A stretch of DNA of 64,000 nucleotides from an uncultured Bacteroidota bacterium (GCA_937872515.1 CALMSX010000122.1:1-64000), one strand, 5' to 3'; positions 53,755 through 57,540 are shown, counted from the stretch's first letter. A program made the numbers and translations. The notes: a model not told the origin generated them from the sequence alone.

Positions 53755-54543
53755 GTGGAATTTTTGTCTTTAAAAGACCTGCTCGAGACAAAGTACCAAC
53801 AGTACCACAACAATGGTTTTATTGATAAAGACCCCATTTCGGTCCCTCACCGGTATAGCCGTAAACAGGATATTGAAATAGTTGCCTTTATAACGGCTAC
53901 CATTTCCTGGGGCAATCGCACCTCCATTATTAAAAATGCCGATGCTCTTTTTAGCAAAATGGGCTCAAGTCCCTACGACTTTGTGCTAAACCATGGCACA
54001 AAAGACCTTAAAACTTTGGATAATTGGGTGCACCGTACCTTTCAAACAGCCGATTTATTGGGTTTTATCCATTTTTTGCAGCGACATTATCAAAATTTCG
54101 ACTCCCTCGAAGAGGCTTTTGTGGGCAACCAACCGTTTCGGTCGGTGGCAGATTCACTCACTTTTTTATCAGATTATATGTTTTCGGCAAACGAAACGAT
54201 CCTGGAGCGCACACGAAAGCATGTGGGCAATCCTCAAAGGGGTTCTGCGTGTAAACGGCTAAACATGTTTTTGAGATGGATGGTGAGGCCCGGCGATGGT
54301 GGTGTAGATTTTGGGTTGTGGAAAAAAATACCCCTAAAAAGCCTGATGATGCCCCTCGATGTGCATGTAGATAGGGTGGCCAGAAGTCTGGGAATGTTGC
54401 AAAGAAAACAGAGTGATTGGAAAAGTGTAGAAGAATTGACGACTTTTTGTCGTCTTTTGGATGCTGAAGATCCCGTTAAATACGACTATGCCTTATTCGG
54501 CATGGGTATTGAGCAAAAAAAAATCAGCCCTGTTATTCTTTAA
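53755..54543 (+). CDS. TIGR02757 family protein (DUF2400)
   Basis: A 262-residue protein of a conserved Bacteroidota family known as TIGR02757, without assigned function. Family-like stretches are DPISVPHRYSRKQDIEIVAFITATISWGNR near the N-terminus and LDVHVDRVARSLGML near residue 200. YDYALFGMGIE lies at the C-terminus. Its helical plan recalls HhH-GPD DNA glycosylases, but no catalytic residue can be claimed. The start is GTG at 53755, 14 bases after infB; a TTG three codons later is possible. Its last codons contain one arm of a hairpin that terminates transcription on the other strand. Confidence 0.85.
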   Translation: MEFLSLKDLLETKYQQYHNNGFIDKDPISVPHRYSRKQDIEIVAFITATISWGNRTSIIKNADALFSKMGSSPYDFVLNHGTKDLKTLDNWVHRTFQTADLLGFIHFLQRHYQNFDSLEEAFVGNQPFRSVADSLTFLSDYMFSANETILERTRKHVGNPQRGSACKRLNMFLRWMVRPGDGGVDFGLWKKIPLKSLMMPLDVHVDRVARSLGMLQRKQSDWKSVEELTTFCRLLDAEDPVKYDYALFGMGIEQKKISPVIL

Positions 54544-54557
54544 TAGCAAGGCTGATT
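54513..54557 (-). terminator. Minus-strand intrinsic terminator embedded in the 3' end of the TIGR02757 gene
   Basis: AATCAGCC (54522-54529) and GGCTGATT (54550-54557) form an 8-bp stem with further inner pairing. On the minus strand it runs into a stretch of nine T. The plus side lacks a T-run. It serves as a second stop for minus-strand transcription coming from the small-ORF region. Confidence 0.7.
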
Positions 54558-54603
54558 CTAAAACTTAAAAGCACAATATTATATCTTGAGTTAACTTACT
54601 TTC

Positions 54604-54645
54604 TTAAAAAAATAACCCACAACTACTTTAAGGATGTGGGTTATT
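54604..54645 (-). terminator. Intrinsic terminator of the 44-codon ORF transcript
   Basis: AATAACCCACA and TGTGGGTTATT form a perfect 11-bp stem with a 13-base loop. On the minus strand the stem runs into a T7 stretch. It starts 78 bases after the stop of the small ORF at 54723. Confidence 0.85.
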
Positions 54646-54722
54646 AAAAACTTACACTTACAGCACAATATATTAATAGTCAATATATTATTCGTTTCTA
54701 ATAACCTCTTTTCTGAGGTTTA

Positions 54723-54857
54723 TTATAGGCCTGAACCTTCTTCATCTCCTACCCAGTCCATATATTGAGACTGACTGCTCTGAGGCATGTTGTTGAATTC
54801 ACTAGAAGAAGAAATAAGGCCAAGCGCCATCAAAAGTCCAATTACATAAGCTACCAT
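54723..54857 (-). CDS. Small exported or membrane peptide, 44 aa, unknown
   Basis: A short ORF on the minus strand (ATG at 54857, TAA at 54723-54725). The N-terminal half is hydrophobic (MVAYVIGLLMALGLISSSS) and could be a signal or membrane segment, although it lacks the usual basic residues at the very start. The second half is polar and acidic: NNMPQSSQSQYMDW, then VGDEEGSGL. I do not recognise it. Support for a real gene comes from its surroundings: a -33/-7 promoter ends about 37 bases upstream, and a strong intrinsic terminator follows, giving a transcript of about 285 bases. It is divergent from a TPR-like gene. It could be a peptide precursor; that is inference. Confidence 0.6.
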   Translation of the reverse strand: MVAYVIGLLMALGLISSSSEFNNMPQSSQSQYMDWVGDEEGSGL

Positions 54858-54893
54858 TTTGAAAAAATTTAATTTGAGTTATAAAATCTATTG

Positions 54894-54921
54894 CAAAATT
54901 ATTGCCAGATTATCACTCAAA
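54894..54921 (-). promoter_or_regulatory. Promoter of the 44-codon ORF (TTTG, 16 bases, TAATTTTG)
   Basis: The minus strand reads TTTTTTG, then 16 bases after it TAATTTTG (54894-54901). This matches the promoter pattern of the Uma2-family gene at the same spacing. Predicted start near 54887, leader about 30 bases. Confidence 0.6.
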
Positions 54922-54935
54922 AAATGACAGTTTAC

Positions 54936-54968
54936 TAATTGGAATTGAGTCTAAAATAGACCAATTAA
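54936..54968. other. Imperfect inverted repeat upstream of the small-peptide promoter
   Basis: TAATTGG and CCAATTA flank an inner GTCTA-AAA-TAGAC hairpin. It lies 15 bases beyond the -33 element of the peptide promoter, a position suited to a regulator site, but no protein can be linked to it. Confidence 0.4.
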
Positions 54969-54970
54969 TT

Positions 54971-55013
54971 GCTATTAATCACCTCAATATCTTCATAATG
55001 AGGTGATTATAGC
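54971..55013. other. Long stable inverted repeat (15-bp stem, one bulge) in the small-ORF region
   Basis: GCTAT(T)AATCACCTCA pairs with TGAGGTGATTATAGC across a 12-base loop, with a single bulged T. Neither strand has a T-run after it, so it is not a normal intrinsic terminator. It lies between the two small ORFs and could be an RNA processing site, an operator or a structured RNA. Confidence 0.6.
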
Positions 55014-55062
55014 AAGTAGATTTGAAATAGTATTCTAAGTTTTCAATGCAAACTACTTAGGA

Positions 55063-55182
55063 TTACGGCATAAACCATAATAAAAATAGAATACACAGAT
55101 ATCCTGTTAAATCTTTATCCCGCCTTTTGTCATCATCTAGTTTATAAGAACTGCTAATGGAGCACACTTGGTATTCCTCCAT
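55063..55182 (-). CDS. Possible small membrane peptide, 39 aa, unknown
   Basis: A very short ORF (ATG at 55182, TAA at 55063-55065). The first half is charged (SSYKLDDDKRRDKD) and the end is hydrophobic (GYLCILFLLWFMP), as in a tail-anchored peptide. A perfect -7 box, TATCTTTG, lies 13 bases before the ATG, which is the main support. An ORF of this size can arise by chance in AT-rich DNA, and the product is unrecognised. An 8-bp imperfect inverted repeat (55033-55062) abuts the stop. It lies on the same strand as the 44-codon ORF, about 205 bases upstream of it. Confidence 0.35.
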   Translation of the reverse strand: MEEYQVCSISSSYKLDDDKRRDKDLTGYLCILFLLWFMP

Positions 55183-55195
55183 TTCTTTCACATGA

Positions 55196-55203
55196 CAAAG
55201 ATA
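55196..55203 (-). promoter_or_regulatory. -7 box TATCTTTG before the 39-codon ORF
   Basis: The reverse complement is a perfect TAnnTTTG box with start predicted near 55189. No TTTG is found at -33 distance. Confidence 0.45.
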
Positions 55204-55257
55204 TGTCCGCGTCAATGATTAAAAAATGCCATTTATCAGATTAAAATTATATTAAAA

Positions 55258-55286
55258 TTTGGCCTGAAAATTGCATTATAAATTTG
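55258..55286 (+). promoter_or_regulatory. Promoter of the TPR-like gene (TTTG, 17 bases, TAAATTTG)
   Basis: TTTG (55258-55261) and TAAATTTG (55279-55286) are separated by 17 bases, a full Bacteroidota promoter. The predicted start near 55293 gives a leader of about 75 bases, which contains a 10-codon ORF. Confidence 0.7.
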
Positions 55287-55338
55287 TAATATTCACTAAA
55301 TCAATATTATAGTATGTGTGAAATTCAAAATTATTTTC

Positions 55339-55371
55339 ATGATTGATTTAATAAAATTGGAATTTTTATGA
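55339..55371 (+). other. 10-codon upstream ORF overlapping the TPR-like gene start
   Basis: ATG at 55339 begins MIDLIKLEFL, and its TGA (55369-55371) overlaps the ATG of the next gene as ATGA. Such overlaps often couple translation. At this length chance occurrence is quite possible. Confidence 0.25.
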
Positions 55372-56891
55372 AAACTCTACTTCCATTAGCGCAATTTTTG
55401 GTCCAAAACTTAAAAAAAGCCGATCTTTTATGGATAAAAAATTTTTTGACACCGGAAGAAACCCTTCTTTTTGAAAAAATCCTGGTAGCAAAGTACCAAA
55501 CGGATATTCAAGCGGCTCAAGAAGTATTCAATATAAAATCCAATACCCCCAGATACCAGAAAATAAAAAAGCAGCTCTCAGATAAGTTGTATAATTCACT
55601 TCTATTCATAACCCCCTCTGTAAAAGGAGTGCCAAAAGAATATGATGAATTTGTGGAATTGCATAAAACAGGGGCTGTATTAAATGTCATTGGGTATTTT
55701 TCAAGGAGGGATTTGTACATGCCTTTGATTAACCAATCTTTTAACATTGCCTATAAATACTTTTTTCACAATGAAGTGCTTTTTATGGCAAACATTCTGA
55801 GGCTCTACTATGGAATGACAGAGCCGAATGTATCAAAATGTAAATATTATACTCAAATTTATGCCGATACAATTGATTATCTGCATTGGGAGAACAAATC
55901 AACATTGTATTACGAATCCATCAATTTGCAGTTTGGAAAAAATAAAAAAGTGAATAAAGAAATGATGGTGATAGAAATTGAAGAGTATTTAAAAGAACTA
56001 CATCCATTTGAGAATAAAATCAGATCATTTAAATTTCACCGGAATTATTACAATCTAAACATGGTATTTCACCACATTCAAAATCAATACCATGAAGTTA
56101 TAGAATATTGCGATAAACTATTGGATTACATTGAAACCATTGGCTTTCCTTCCATTGTAATAAAAAGAAACACCATCAGACAAAAAGCGGAGCACTTGGT
56201 ATTGCTCAACAACTTTGATGAAGCACTCGTGGAGGTGGAAAAAATTTTGAGCTTAGAAACGGAAGGCACCTCAACCTGGATCAATGCTCAAAAAATGCTA
56301 TTGCTAATCTATATGAATAAGCGAGAATATTTAAAGGCAGATCAAATTACTACTGAATTGCTAGCCAATCAAAATTATACTAAGGCAGTTAGTGCTTATA
56401 AGAGACAAATCGCCCTGATTGGTGTTTATCTATATATTTTTAGACTCATGCACATCATACCTGGCTATCAACAAGACCAGAAATCGCAAGTCAAAAAATA
56501 CATGAATGAGTATCCGGAGTTCAGTAGAGATAAATCCTCTATGAACATTCCCATAATCATTGCCCAATTGCTTGAAGCCATCGTGCTGAAAAGAGAAGGG
56601 GAAGTTATTGATAGAATTGACGCCCTCAAAAAATATTCAAGCCGATATATTACAAAAAGTGATAGCATTCGAAGTAACTGCTTTATCAATATGCTGCTGG
56701 AAGTGGTGCGCAACAATTATCATATAGTTGCCATTGAGCGACATGCTAAAAAATACTATGCTAAATTATTGGCAAACCCAAAATTAACTTCTGATGAAGC
56801 AGCGGAAGTAGAATTTATTCCATACGAACATTTGTGGGAGATCATCATGAACTTCATGAAGCATAGGAGAAATCAAGATAATAGGTGGTAA
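55368..56891 (+). CDS. TPR-like helical repeat protein, unknown
   Basis: A 507-residue, almost entirely alpha-helical cytoplasmic protein without signal peptide or membrane segment. Residues about 240-400 show helix pairs in the style of tetratricopeptide repeats (HEVIEYCDKLLDYIE, FDEALVEVEKILSLE, YLKADQITTELLAN). The N-terminal 80 residues (SNTPRYQKIKKQLSDKLYNSLLF) form another helical part without a clear DNA-binding motif. The gene is richer in A+T, and in Lys, Asn and Ile, than its neighbours, which hints at a different origin. It has its own promoter and stands alone, divergent from two small ORFs. I do not recognise the family; a regulatory or scaffold role is plausible for TPR proteins. 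Confidence 0.75.
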   Translation: MKTLLPLAQFLVQNLKKADLLWIKNFLTPEETLLFEKILVAKYQTDIQAAQEVFNIKSNTPRYQKIKKQLSDKLYNSLLFITPSVKGVPKEYDEFVELHKTGAVLNVIGYFSRRDLYMPLINQSFNIAYKYFFHNEVLFMANILRLYYGMTEPNVSKCKYYTQIYADTIDYLHWENKSTLYYESINLQFGKNKKVNKEMMVIEIEEYLKELHPFENKIRSFKFHRNYYNLNMVFHHIQNQYHEVIEYCDKLLDYIETIGFPSIVIKRNTIRQKAEHLVLLNNFDEALVEVEKILSLETEGTSTWINAQKMLLLIYMNKREYLKADQITTELLANQNYTKAVSAYKRQIALIGVYLYIFRLMHIIPGYQQDQKSQVKKYMNEYPEFSRDKSSMNIPIIIAQLLEAIVLKREGEVIDRIDALKKYSSRYITKSDSIRSNCFINMLLEVVRNNYHIVAIERHAKKYYAKLLANPKLTSDEAAEVEFIPYEHLWEIIMNFMKHRRNQDNRW

Positions 56892-56907: not shown

Positions 56908-57540
56908 TTAGTAATTTAGCAATTCATCCAGCCTTTCATAAAACTGGCCGGCATGATAACCATCGGCTAAGGCATGGTGCAGGTGGATGGAAACAGGCAG
57001 GAAATATCGGCCATTTTTTTCCATCAATTTGCCAACAGAAATTTTTGGTACACTACCCGGATTTTTGATCACGCCGGCATGACTCAAATGGGTAAAGGCT
57101 ACCCAGGGCAAGGCTGAAAAATGAACTACATCTGGTCTATTGGCAGCATCACTCAGACACAAGCCCTGCTTTTGCTGCACCGCCTTCATTTCTTCTGTAG
57201 CAACTTGGACAAACTGTTCAAAATTTTCATAATAAGGCATGAAAGAAAAACCAAAGGTATGATCGGCCCTGCCCACCGTTGGCGATACATGGATGGTGTC
57301 ATAAATTCTTACCCTGTCTTCCTCTATTCTATACTTTAGGTTTTCTACTGAGTTGACCGCTACCAGGCATTTGTGCAGATAGTAAAGAAAAAATGAGGAC
57401 CCATGCCTTTTACAATTTTGCAAGGCACCACCGCATTCCACCTCCGCCACCAGTCCAAAAAAAGGCTGGTCCATGGCACTGAAAAAATGGAAGTGCTCTT
57501 TTCTGTTCCATTGCTCTATATTCAGATACTTTGCCGACAT
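56908..57540 (-). CDS. Chloramphenicol acetyltransferase-like (CAT, type A) acyltransferase
   Basis: A 210-residue protein of the CAT family, homotrimeric enzymes that transfer acetyl groups from acetyl-CoA. The N-terminus (IEQWNRKEHFHFF) and the catalytic HHALADG (H188-G194, with H189 the likely catalytic base) are clear. PWVAFTHL near residue 150 and LPVSIHLHHALADGYH also match. Chromosomal CAT-like proteins in environmental bacteria often act on other substrates, so chloramphenicol resistance should not be assumed. It follows the HAD gene by one base on the same strand, so the two form an operon. Confidence 0.87.
   Translation of the reverse strand: MSAKYLNIEQWNRKEHFHFFSAMDQPFFGLVAEVECGGALQNCKRHGSSFFLYYLHKCLVAVNSVENLKYRIEEDRVRIYDTIHVSPTVGRADHTFGFSFMPYYENFEQFVQVATEEMKAVQQKQGLCLSDAANRPDVVHFSALPWVAFTHLSHAGVIKNPGSVPKISVGKLMEKNGRYFLPVSIHLHHALADGYHAGQFYERLDELLNY

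Follow-up and report, generated by a model that had tools for sequence, protein, structure and literature searches.

A small pro-peptide gene and a divergent TPR protein gene in an AT-rich islet of a Bacteroidota genome: a probable pheromone-receptor pair

The window analyzed here, a stretch of DNA of 64,000 nucleotides (nt), is a contig of a 4.7-Mb Bacteroidota genome. It contains an AT-rich islet (54544-56891), flanked by a DUF2400 gene (53755-54543) on one side and a chloramphenicol-acetyltransferase-like gene (56908-57540) on the other, with an open reading frame (ORF) of 44 amino acids (aa) on the minus strand and, divergent from it, an ORF of 507 aa encoding a tetratricopeptide repeat (TPR) protein. 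These two genes (Table 1), which probably encode a peptide pheromone and its receptor, are the subject of this analysis. An earlier note on this DNA, made from the sequence alone, had pointed to a stretch richer in A+T with several inverted repeats, one or two small minus-strand ORFs and a gene for a divergent helical-repeat protein with its own promoter. Indeed, the islet is the lowest 2.3-kb stretch in GC content of the 64 kb (0.322 versus 0.419 for the window; z about -4.3), inverted repeats were found at two places (Table 1), next to weaker ones, and a promoter of the Bacteroidota type is readable upstream of the 507-aa ORF. Of the small ORFs, only the one of 44 aa stood; the second (TTG start, 55063-55215) was not supported as a gene, as its end differs in the sister species and it resembles conserved non-coding DNA.

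The 507-aa protein, called the receptor below for its proposed role, belongs to an unnamed TPR family without a Pfam entry. Relatives of about 490-530 aa were retrieved from 38 of 61 related genomes, with up to 12 copies, and the family occurred in 240 of 298 Saprospiraceae genomes, representing 98 of 112 genera, as well as in 26 of 395 genomes sampled phylum-wide, other Bacteroidota classes included. Since the named relatives are nearly all Saprospiraceae, such as Flavilitoribacter nigricans DSM 23189 and Lewinella cohaerens DSM 23179, the host of the window was taken to belong to this family. For the distant families, a search for the FMO protein of green sulphur bacteria gave no match, and as its control gave none in any genome either, it carries no information on their identity. 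A phage origin was rejected, as two scans of viral contigs gave no relatives; similarly, a defence system was rejected, as no PADLOC family matched more than one of 89 members scanned (best E 2e-4). Further, a metagenome-assembled genome (MAG) named Kordia (ALOHA_ZT_18) and the Saprospiraceae MAG ALOHA_ZT_62, of the same series, carry receptor loci identical in match length, identity and E-value, the Kordia locus representing either mis-binning or a recent transfer.

The pairing of a small ORF with the receptor gene recurred outside the window, far more often than chance would give. A first rule, asking for a divergent small ORF with a hydrophobic start and an acidic end, selected 24 of 92 loci; at three control positions it selected 1, 0 and 2 of 92, and among shuffles 0.5%. 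Because this rule had been devised after examples were seen, it was frozen and then applied to newly fetched loci, where it selected eight of 61 versus 0, 0 and 1 of 61 in the control positions; L234 was afterwards removed from these eight as spurious. Furthermore, a hidden Markov model (HMM) of the first 20 peptide residues only, run against 19,875 small ORFs (cut-off E<1e-3), gave 34 matches, and all those with a detectable receptor gene lay on the opposite strand with their start 85-829 nt upstream of that gene; one match (L066) came from a locus without a complete receptor ORF, at a contig end. The 44-aa ORF of the window is the local copy of this conserved pro-peptide family, of which the 61 called peptides measure 17-90 aa. 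Its distance to the receptor gene is 510 nt, compared with a family median of 204 nt, and the two are divergent neighbours with no gene between them.

ORFs selected by their N-terminus shared their C-terminus too. Counted from the stop codon, Asp or Glu occupied exactly position -5 in 94% of them versus 6% of the background, Ile position -9 in 21 of 32, and Val or Ile position -8 in 19 of 32; the combined C-terminal motif was present in 19 of 32 ORFs versus 71 of 9028 (p=4e-31). Among 71 peptides, the acidic residue stood at -5 in 60 and at -6 in seven more. The resulting end consensus, of about nine residues, reads I-V-x-x-D-hydrophobic-[DE]-[GE]-hydrophobic-COOH, with as examples VVGTDLDSM (F. 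nigricans), MDWVGDEEGSGL (window), MDLITEILILLGLINEDLDGI (L071), GVVIIDTDEL (L068), RIVIFDELEV (L075) and NDDLDGY (L214). Another Bacteroidota family carries the ends IDR[TRL]ED or FDRYED (L128, L129, L132 and L134). In one locus of this distant family (L128), two consecutive peptide genes (471-656 and 1067-1240), ending in IDRTED and IDRRED, accompany one receptor, making it a possible two-pheromone locus.

The same nine-residue end was found behind three unrelated leader types. A first type is hydrophobic, as in the window. A second type is a double-glycine leader, present in five loci (L106, L112, L041, L227 and L034); in L106 and L112 the common end follows the leader as IKGG/TSDTSSTTSILGVDMDVM, and in L041 (KGG/LVVTDVLAF) and L034 (KGG/IIEQDILVG) the glycine pair lies exactly before the nonamer. 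A third type, polar, precedes the end VIIIDITGV in same-strand peptides of a receptor group named clade 2. A constant end behind unrelated leaders indicates that activity probably resides in the end, whereas at least some of the leaders may serve export. In particular, the double-glycine leaders suggest an exporter other than one of the Sec or PptAB type.

On the receptor side, a tree of 209 sequences, made with a quick method, contained two clades without divergent peptides, namely a core clade of 63 members (branch support 23) and clade 2 with 36 members (branch support 99), whereas divergent peptides accompanied 59 of the remaining 104. Residues K389, G391 and N393 (window numbering) are conserved in the peptide-linked receptors and in clade 2 and are replaced in the core clade, mostly by Q, I and T; the window receptor keeps K389 and N393 and carries S at 391. 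Since clade 2 keeps the motif, a role of the motif in peptide binding would predict that this clade possesses a peptide. The divergent peptides served to train a C-terminal matrix, whose matches are therefore independent for clade 2, unassigned receptors and the core clade only. This matrix retrieved upstream peptides on the same strand for some clade-2 receptors, namely 7 of 35 with the stricter threshold, and no peptide in 61 core-clade loci. Four calls were judged spurious and dropped, namely the peptides L038 and L234 and the core-clade matches L167 and L102. Overall, a linked peptide occurred with 65 of 126 receptors having K or R at 389 and N at 393 versus 5 of 73 without (p=2e-11), a comparison uncorrected for relatedness and to which the core clade gives much of the contrast. 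The earlier note had asked whether a small ORF always sits divergent to the homologues of the 507-aa protein; this held for all HMM matches by readable receptors and not for the family as a whole, given the peptide-less core clade and the same-strand peptides of clade 2. The note had also named homologues without an adjacent small ORF as a refuting outcome, and the core clade is such a case. As this clade lost the K-G-N motif as well, its lack of peptides fits the idea of a peptide-receptor pair rather than refuting it. Judging by dozens of loci across genera, the shared end motif and the matching receptor motif, the layout of peptide gene and TPR receptor gene is not a chance pairing.

Several single loci deserve mention. 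In L130, the receptor carries Leu at 389 in place of Lys and the peptide ends in VVVPGQDD, without an acidic residue at -5; this single case fits a proposed contact between the Lys and the acid. Tandem receptors occur in L058, L054, L087, L082, L050, L209 and L213, one copy often being without its own peptide; such copies may share one common peptide or respond to different peptides. Upstream of the receptors L092, L098, L099, L100, L101, L102 and L118, and on the same strand, lies a conserved gene of 73 aa (MYWTLELAYHLEDAPWPATRDELIDYAIRSG...); these receptors are peptide-less and mostly belong to the core clade.

The receptor was further characterised by structure prediction and profile searches. 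AlphaFold predicted a confident all-helical superhelix for the receptors of the window (pLDDT 91.8) and of F. nigricans (pLDDT 89.4), each model containing five N-terminal helices of unassigned role. The 507-aa protein matched no Pfam model, those for TPR included, and no NCBIfam, PADLOC or informative PHROG model; among the 89 members scanned, individual ones matched Pfam TPR models weakly. The central part of a profile of the family matched TPR proteins of the PDB, among them an engineered one with E 8.5e-18, and no RRNPP chain was present at E≤1 among the best 60 of 63 matches. The helical-repeat character stated in the earlier note was thus found in model and profile alike. The note had also missed a clear DNA-binding domain, and no helix-turn-helix (HTH) family recurred in the Pfam scans of the 89 members. 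In Foldseek comparisons with the PDB, the window model had no match reaching E 1e-3, RapI showing the best target-normalised TM score (0.72) among the matches listed; the top match of the F. nigricans model was AimR (6hp3, E 9.8e-4), and AimR and Rap proteins recurred through its top 50. With these modest scores, and with other TPR proteins among the matches, the comparison may support an RRNPP-like receptor fold without proving it.

Peptide and receptor genes have diverged together within conserved surroundings. Compared with genome G001, the sister species according to the flanking genes, the flanks showed synonymous divergence (dS) of 0.23-0.75, whereas the receptor had 63% protein identity with saturated dS, and the peptide a dS of 1.17 with a ratio of nonsynonymous to synonymous divergence (dN/dS) of 0.19. 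The receptor was closer to that of genome G002 (75% aa identity), although the flanks of G002 are farther (60-81% identity versus 93-97% for G001). Against G001, the peptide gene is 100% identical over its first 35 nt, and the 150 nt behind the gene are nearly identical. Peptide orthologues were retrieved from both genomes (L032 in G001 and L331 in G002); the G002 contig is broken in the intergenic region, and the G002 peptide, MVAYVIGLLMALGLISSSTEFNNLPQSTKSVYMDWVGEDDPSGM, is encoded at the terminus of a different contig. Known pherotype loci consist of diverged alleles within conserved flanks. The present sequences give a similar picture of a diverged island, pointing to an allele that was moved or kept under diversifying selection.

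Upstream of 49% of the peptide genes, a -7 box TAnnTTTG was found within 200 nt, versus 14% in shuffles. A TGT(C) box 27-29 nt upstream of the -7 box accompanied 16 of 30 peptide-gene sites versus 97 of 1139 background sites (p=1e-9). A canonical -33 TTTG at standard spacing was rejected for these promoters, being in no excess over shuffles; the TGTC box lies farther upstream instead.

The intergenic DNA of the window (54968-55230) is single-copy in the genome, which argues against a repeat or mobile element, and no Rfam family reached its gathering score there, so that a known RNA was rejected as well. The inverted repeat listed in Table 1 for this region is conserved in G001 and has one change in G002. 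In addition, a block of about 55 nt (55139-55195), between the two genes, is nearly constant in G001 and G002 within diverged surroundings, and its hairpin AATGGAG/CTCCATT has become AAAGGAG/CTCCTTT in G002, a compensatory change. This block, without an Rfam match, appears to be a structured RNA or a regulatory element specific to the genus.

Table 1. Features of the AT-rich islet, in window coordinates, with the evidence for each.
Feature	Coordinates	Strand	Evidence
Hairpin with a T run behind it, probable transcription terminator of the peptide gene	54611..54645	-	Inverted repeat 54611-54621/54635-54645 and sequence
Pro-peptide gene, 44 aa, MVAYVIGLLMALGLISSSSEFNNMPQSSQSQYMDWVGDEEGSGL	54723..54857	-	ORF; N-terminal HMM family; dN/dS 0.19 versus G001; orthologues
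Codons of the last nine residues (VGDEEGSGL), putative mature pheromone region, E at -5	54726..54752	-	Family C-terminal consensus; position of the double glycine in L041 and L034
Hydrophobic leader, residues 1-18, without basic n-region	54804..54857	-	First 35 nt 100% identical to G001
Putative peptide gene promoter: CTGTC box, N24, TAATTTTG (-7 box)	54894..54930	-	Pattern enrichment upstream of peptide genes
Inverted repeat TAATCACCTCAATAT/ATAATGAGGTGATTA, arms 54976-54990/54995-55009; candidate operator or RNA hairpin	54976..55009	.	Conservation in G001 and G002
Receptor gene promoter, Bacteroidota-type: TTTG 55258-55261, N17, TAAATTTG 55279-55286	55258..55286	+	Direct sequence reading
TPR receptor gene, 507 aa	55368..56891	+	ORF; homologues; profile; AlphaFold
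Codons for receptor P383-I397, including K389 and N393	56514..56558	+	Motif kept in peptide-linked receptors, lost in core clade

The explanation that best accounts for these data, with a probability of roughly two in three, is that the islet encodes a peptide pheromone and a cytosolic TPR receptor, an RRNPP-like pair in a diderm phylum. At the level of sequence, its support comes from the linkage of the genes, the end motif, the swapping of leaders, the joint loss of receptor motif and peptide, the allelic divergence, the box in the peptide promoters and the fold class. For export, processing, uptake, binding and output, we infer the following course. The small gene would produce a pro-peptide whose leader directs export, and processing would release a short acidic C-terminal peptide of about nine residues. 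This peptide would re-enter cells and bind, in an extended conformation, inside the TPR superhelix, with K389 contacting the conserved acid at peptide position -5 and N393 the peptide backbone. The bound receptor may then switch and alter gene expression or a partner protein. A wider view, held more tentatively and at somewhat less than even odds, is that of a Bacteroidota-wide pheromone system for signalling between cells, independent of or remotely related to RRNPP, with a nine-residue acidic pheromone, three interchangeable leaders, a 500-aa K-x3-N TPR receptor, pherotype-like alleles and peptides imported in diderms.

Several points weigh against a pheromone-receptor pair. The hydrophobic leaders do not have the basic n-region of Sec signals, the clade-2 peptides carry no recognisable export signal, and the peptide would have to cross an outer membrane. 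No HTH or effector domain was recognised in the receptor, and no regulon is visible in the window's genome, the promoter pattern being in no genome-wide excess (6 versus 9 for a reversed-pattern control). In the Foldseek comparisons, scores were weak, with E 1e-3 to 1e-2, TM mostly below 0.5 and a low whole-length TM; TPR superhelices are alike, and other TPR proteins figure among the fold matches too. Furthermore, 68 of the 139 non-core receptors have no detected peptide, some of them being second tandem copies. Binding and export are proposals from sequence.

The leaders in particular, which are also short for signal peptides, would suit an intracellular regulator, i.e., a small protein that is never exported, with the leader as a membrane anchor and the acidic tail recruiting or inhibiting the TPR protein; the polar leaders of clade 2 point in the same direction. 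This alternative is nevertheless unlikely, as double-glycine leaders, typical of C39-peptidase ABC exporters, stand before the motif in five loci and directly adjoin the nonamer in two of these, as such varied leader types are unexpected for a membrane anchor, and as the pattern of allelic divergence is that of recognition between cells. Bacteriocins bear double-glycine leaders as well, and small hydrophobic ORFs in an AT-rich, variable locus are of the size of type I toxins, so that a toxin-antitoxin or bacteriocin-immunity pair may be considered, in which the TPR protein neutralises a toxic hydrophobic peptide. It is improbable in view of the strong conservation of the acidic C-terminus and of the leader, the clade-2 peptides that are not hydrophobic, the absence of a PADLOC family match and the size of the TPR protein, 500 aa being unusual for an antitoxin or immunity protein. 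About as improbable is a precursor of a ribosomally synthesized and post-translationally modified peptide (RiPP) with a TPR accessory protein, the C-terminal motif being the modification site; its layout, a motif anchored at the C-terminus plus a TPR protein, is that of FxSxx-COOH, of which the NCBIfam TPR model weakly matched one of 89 members (E 0.0034), but this match is single and weak, neighbours vary between loci, and no maturase (radical SAM or ATP-grasp) adjoins the pair in the window. Least probable of all is that the small ORFs stand next to a functionally unrelated TPR protein by coincidence or hitch-hiking, a view for which the non-core receptors without a detected peptide would speak, against the positional specificity, the C-terminal motif, the dN/dS of 0.19 and the joint loss of motif and peptide.

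If the pheromone-receptor pair is real, a major Gram-negative phylum would have its own peptide-receptor signalling, near-universal in Saprospiraceae, which raises the question how a peptide exits and re-enters a two-membrane cell. The dozens of natural peptide-receptor pairs would lend themselves to specificity studies, and the culture-collection strain F. nigricans DSM 23189 has such a pair. Signalling by re-imported peptides and TPR receptors has been described for Firmicutes, their phages and plasmids; in the open-access literature, no report of it in Bacteroidota was found, in agreement with the earlier note, which knew of no system established in this group.

That note had likened the islet to the RRNPP layout of peptide plus TPR receptor. 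The defining traits of RRNPP systems are a small pro-peptide that is secreted (10-100 aa; Sec or PptAB-type), a TPR receptor of about 250-500 aa and adjacent genes; the survey that gave these criteria covered Firmicutes and viruses only (PMC10075063). The present pair agrees with this definition in pro-peptide size, TPRs and gene adjacency, and differs in receptor length, 507 aa being just above the 500-aa limit. The survey software would miss the window pair, since its default limits are 500 aa and 400 nt (507 aa and 510 nt in the window). Hence, the layout itself recurred in dozens of loci, whereas membership of RRNPP was not shown, given the lack of sequence homology to known receptors and of a recognised HTH; the pair probably works like RRNPP and is not filed as a member because of the length limit and the missing sequence homology.

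Among the individual systems, Rgg/SHP and ComR/ComS of streptococci resemble the present family in their very short hydrophobic pro-peptides, the C-terminal mature peptide and the divergent gene order, as in shp/rgg groups I and II; ComS of S. mutans has 17 aa without a basic n-region, and SHPs have 22-23 aa with a conserved Asp or Glu (PMC5167397, PMC3679016). Unlike those systems, the family has a receptor of about 507 aa without homology to theirs and without a recognised HTH, the N-terminal HTH of the Rgg/PlcR/ComR/AimR subtype included, a Gram-negative host and several leader types. The AimR/AimP arbitrium system is close in fold, AimR being the top PDB match of the F. nigricans model, whereas AimR is phage-borne and DNA-binding and the family had no copy in viral contigs in two scans. 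FxSxx-COOH systems likewise combine a C-terminal peptide motif with a TPR protein, and differ in the maturase, which does not adjoin the present pair, in an unrelated motif and in their single weak TPR match. Finally, Rap/Phr shares the TPR receptor, and among the matches listed for the window model RapI scored best by target-normalised TM; Rap/Phr differs in the reversed charge (here an acidic peptide and a receptor Lys), in the divergent or tandem-upstream position of the peptide gene here and in the lack of homology. Two conserved residues of RapF anchor the bound peptide, an Asn holding its backbone and an Asp paired with its conserved Arg (PMC3601957), and K389 and N393, together with the Asp at -5, would be a charge-swapped parallel of these anchors.

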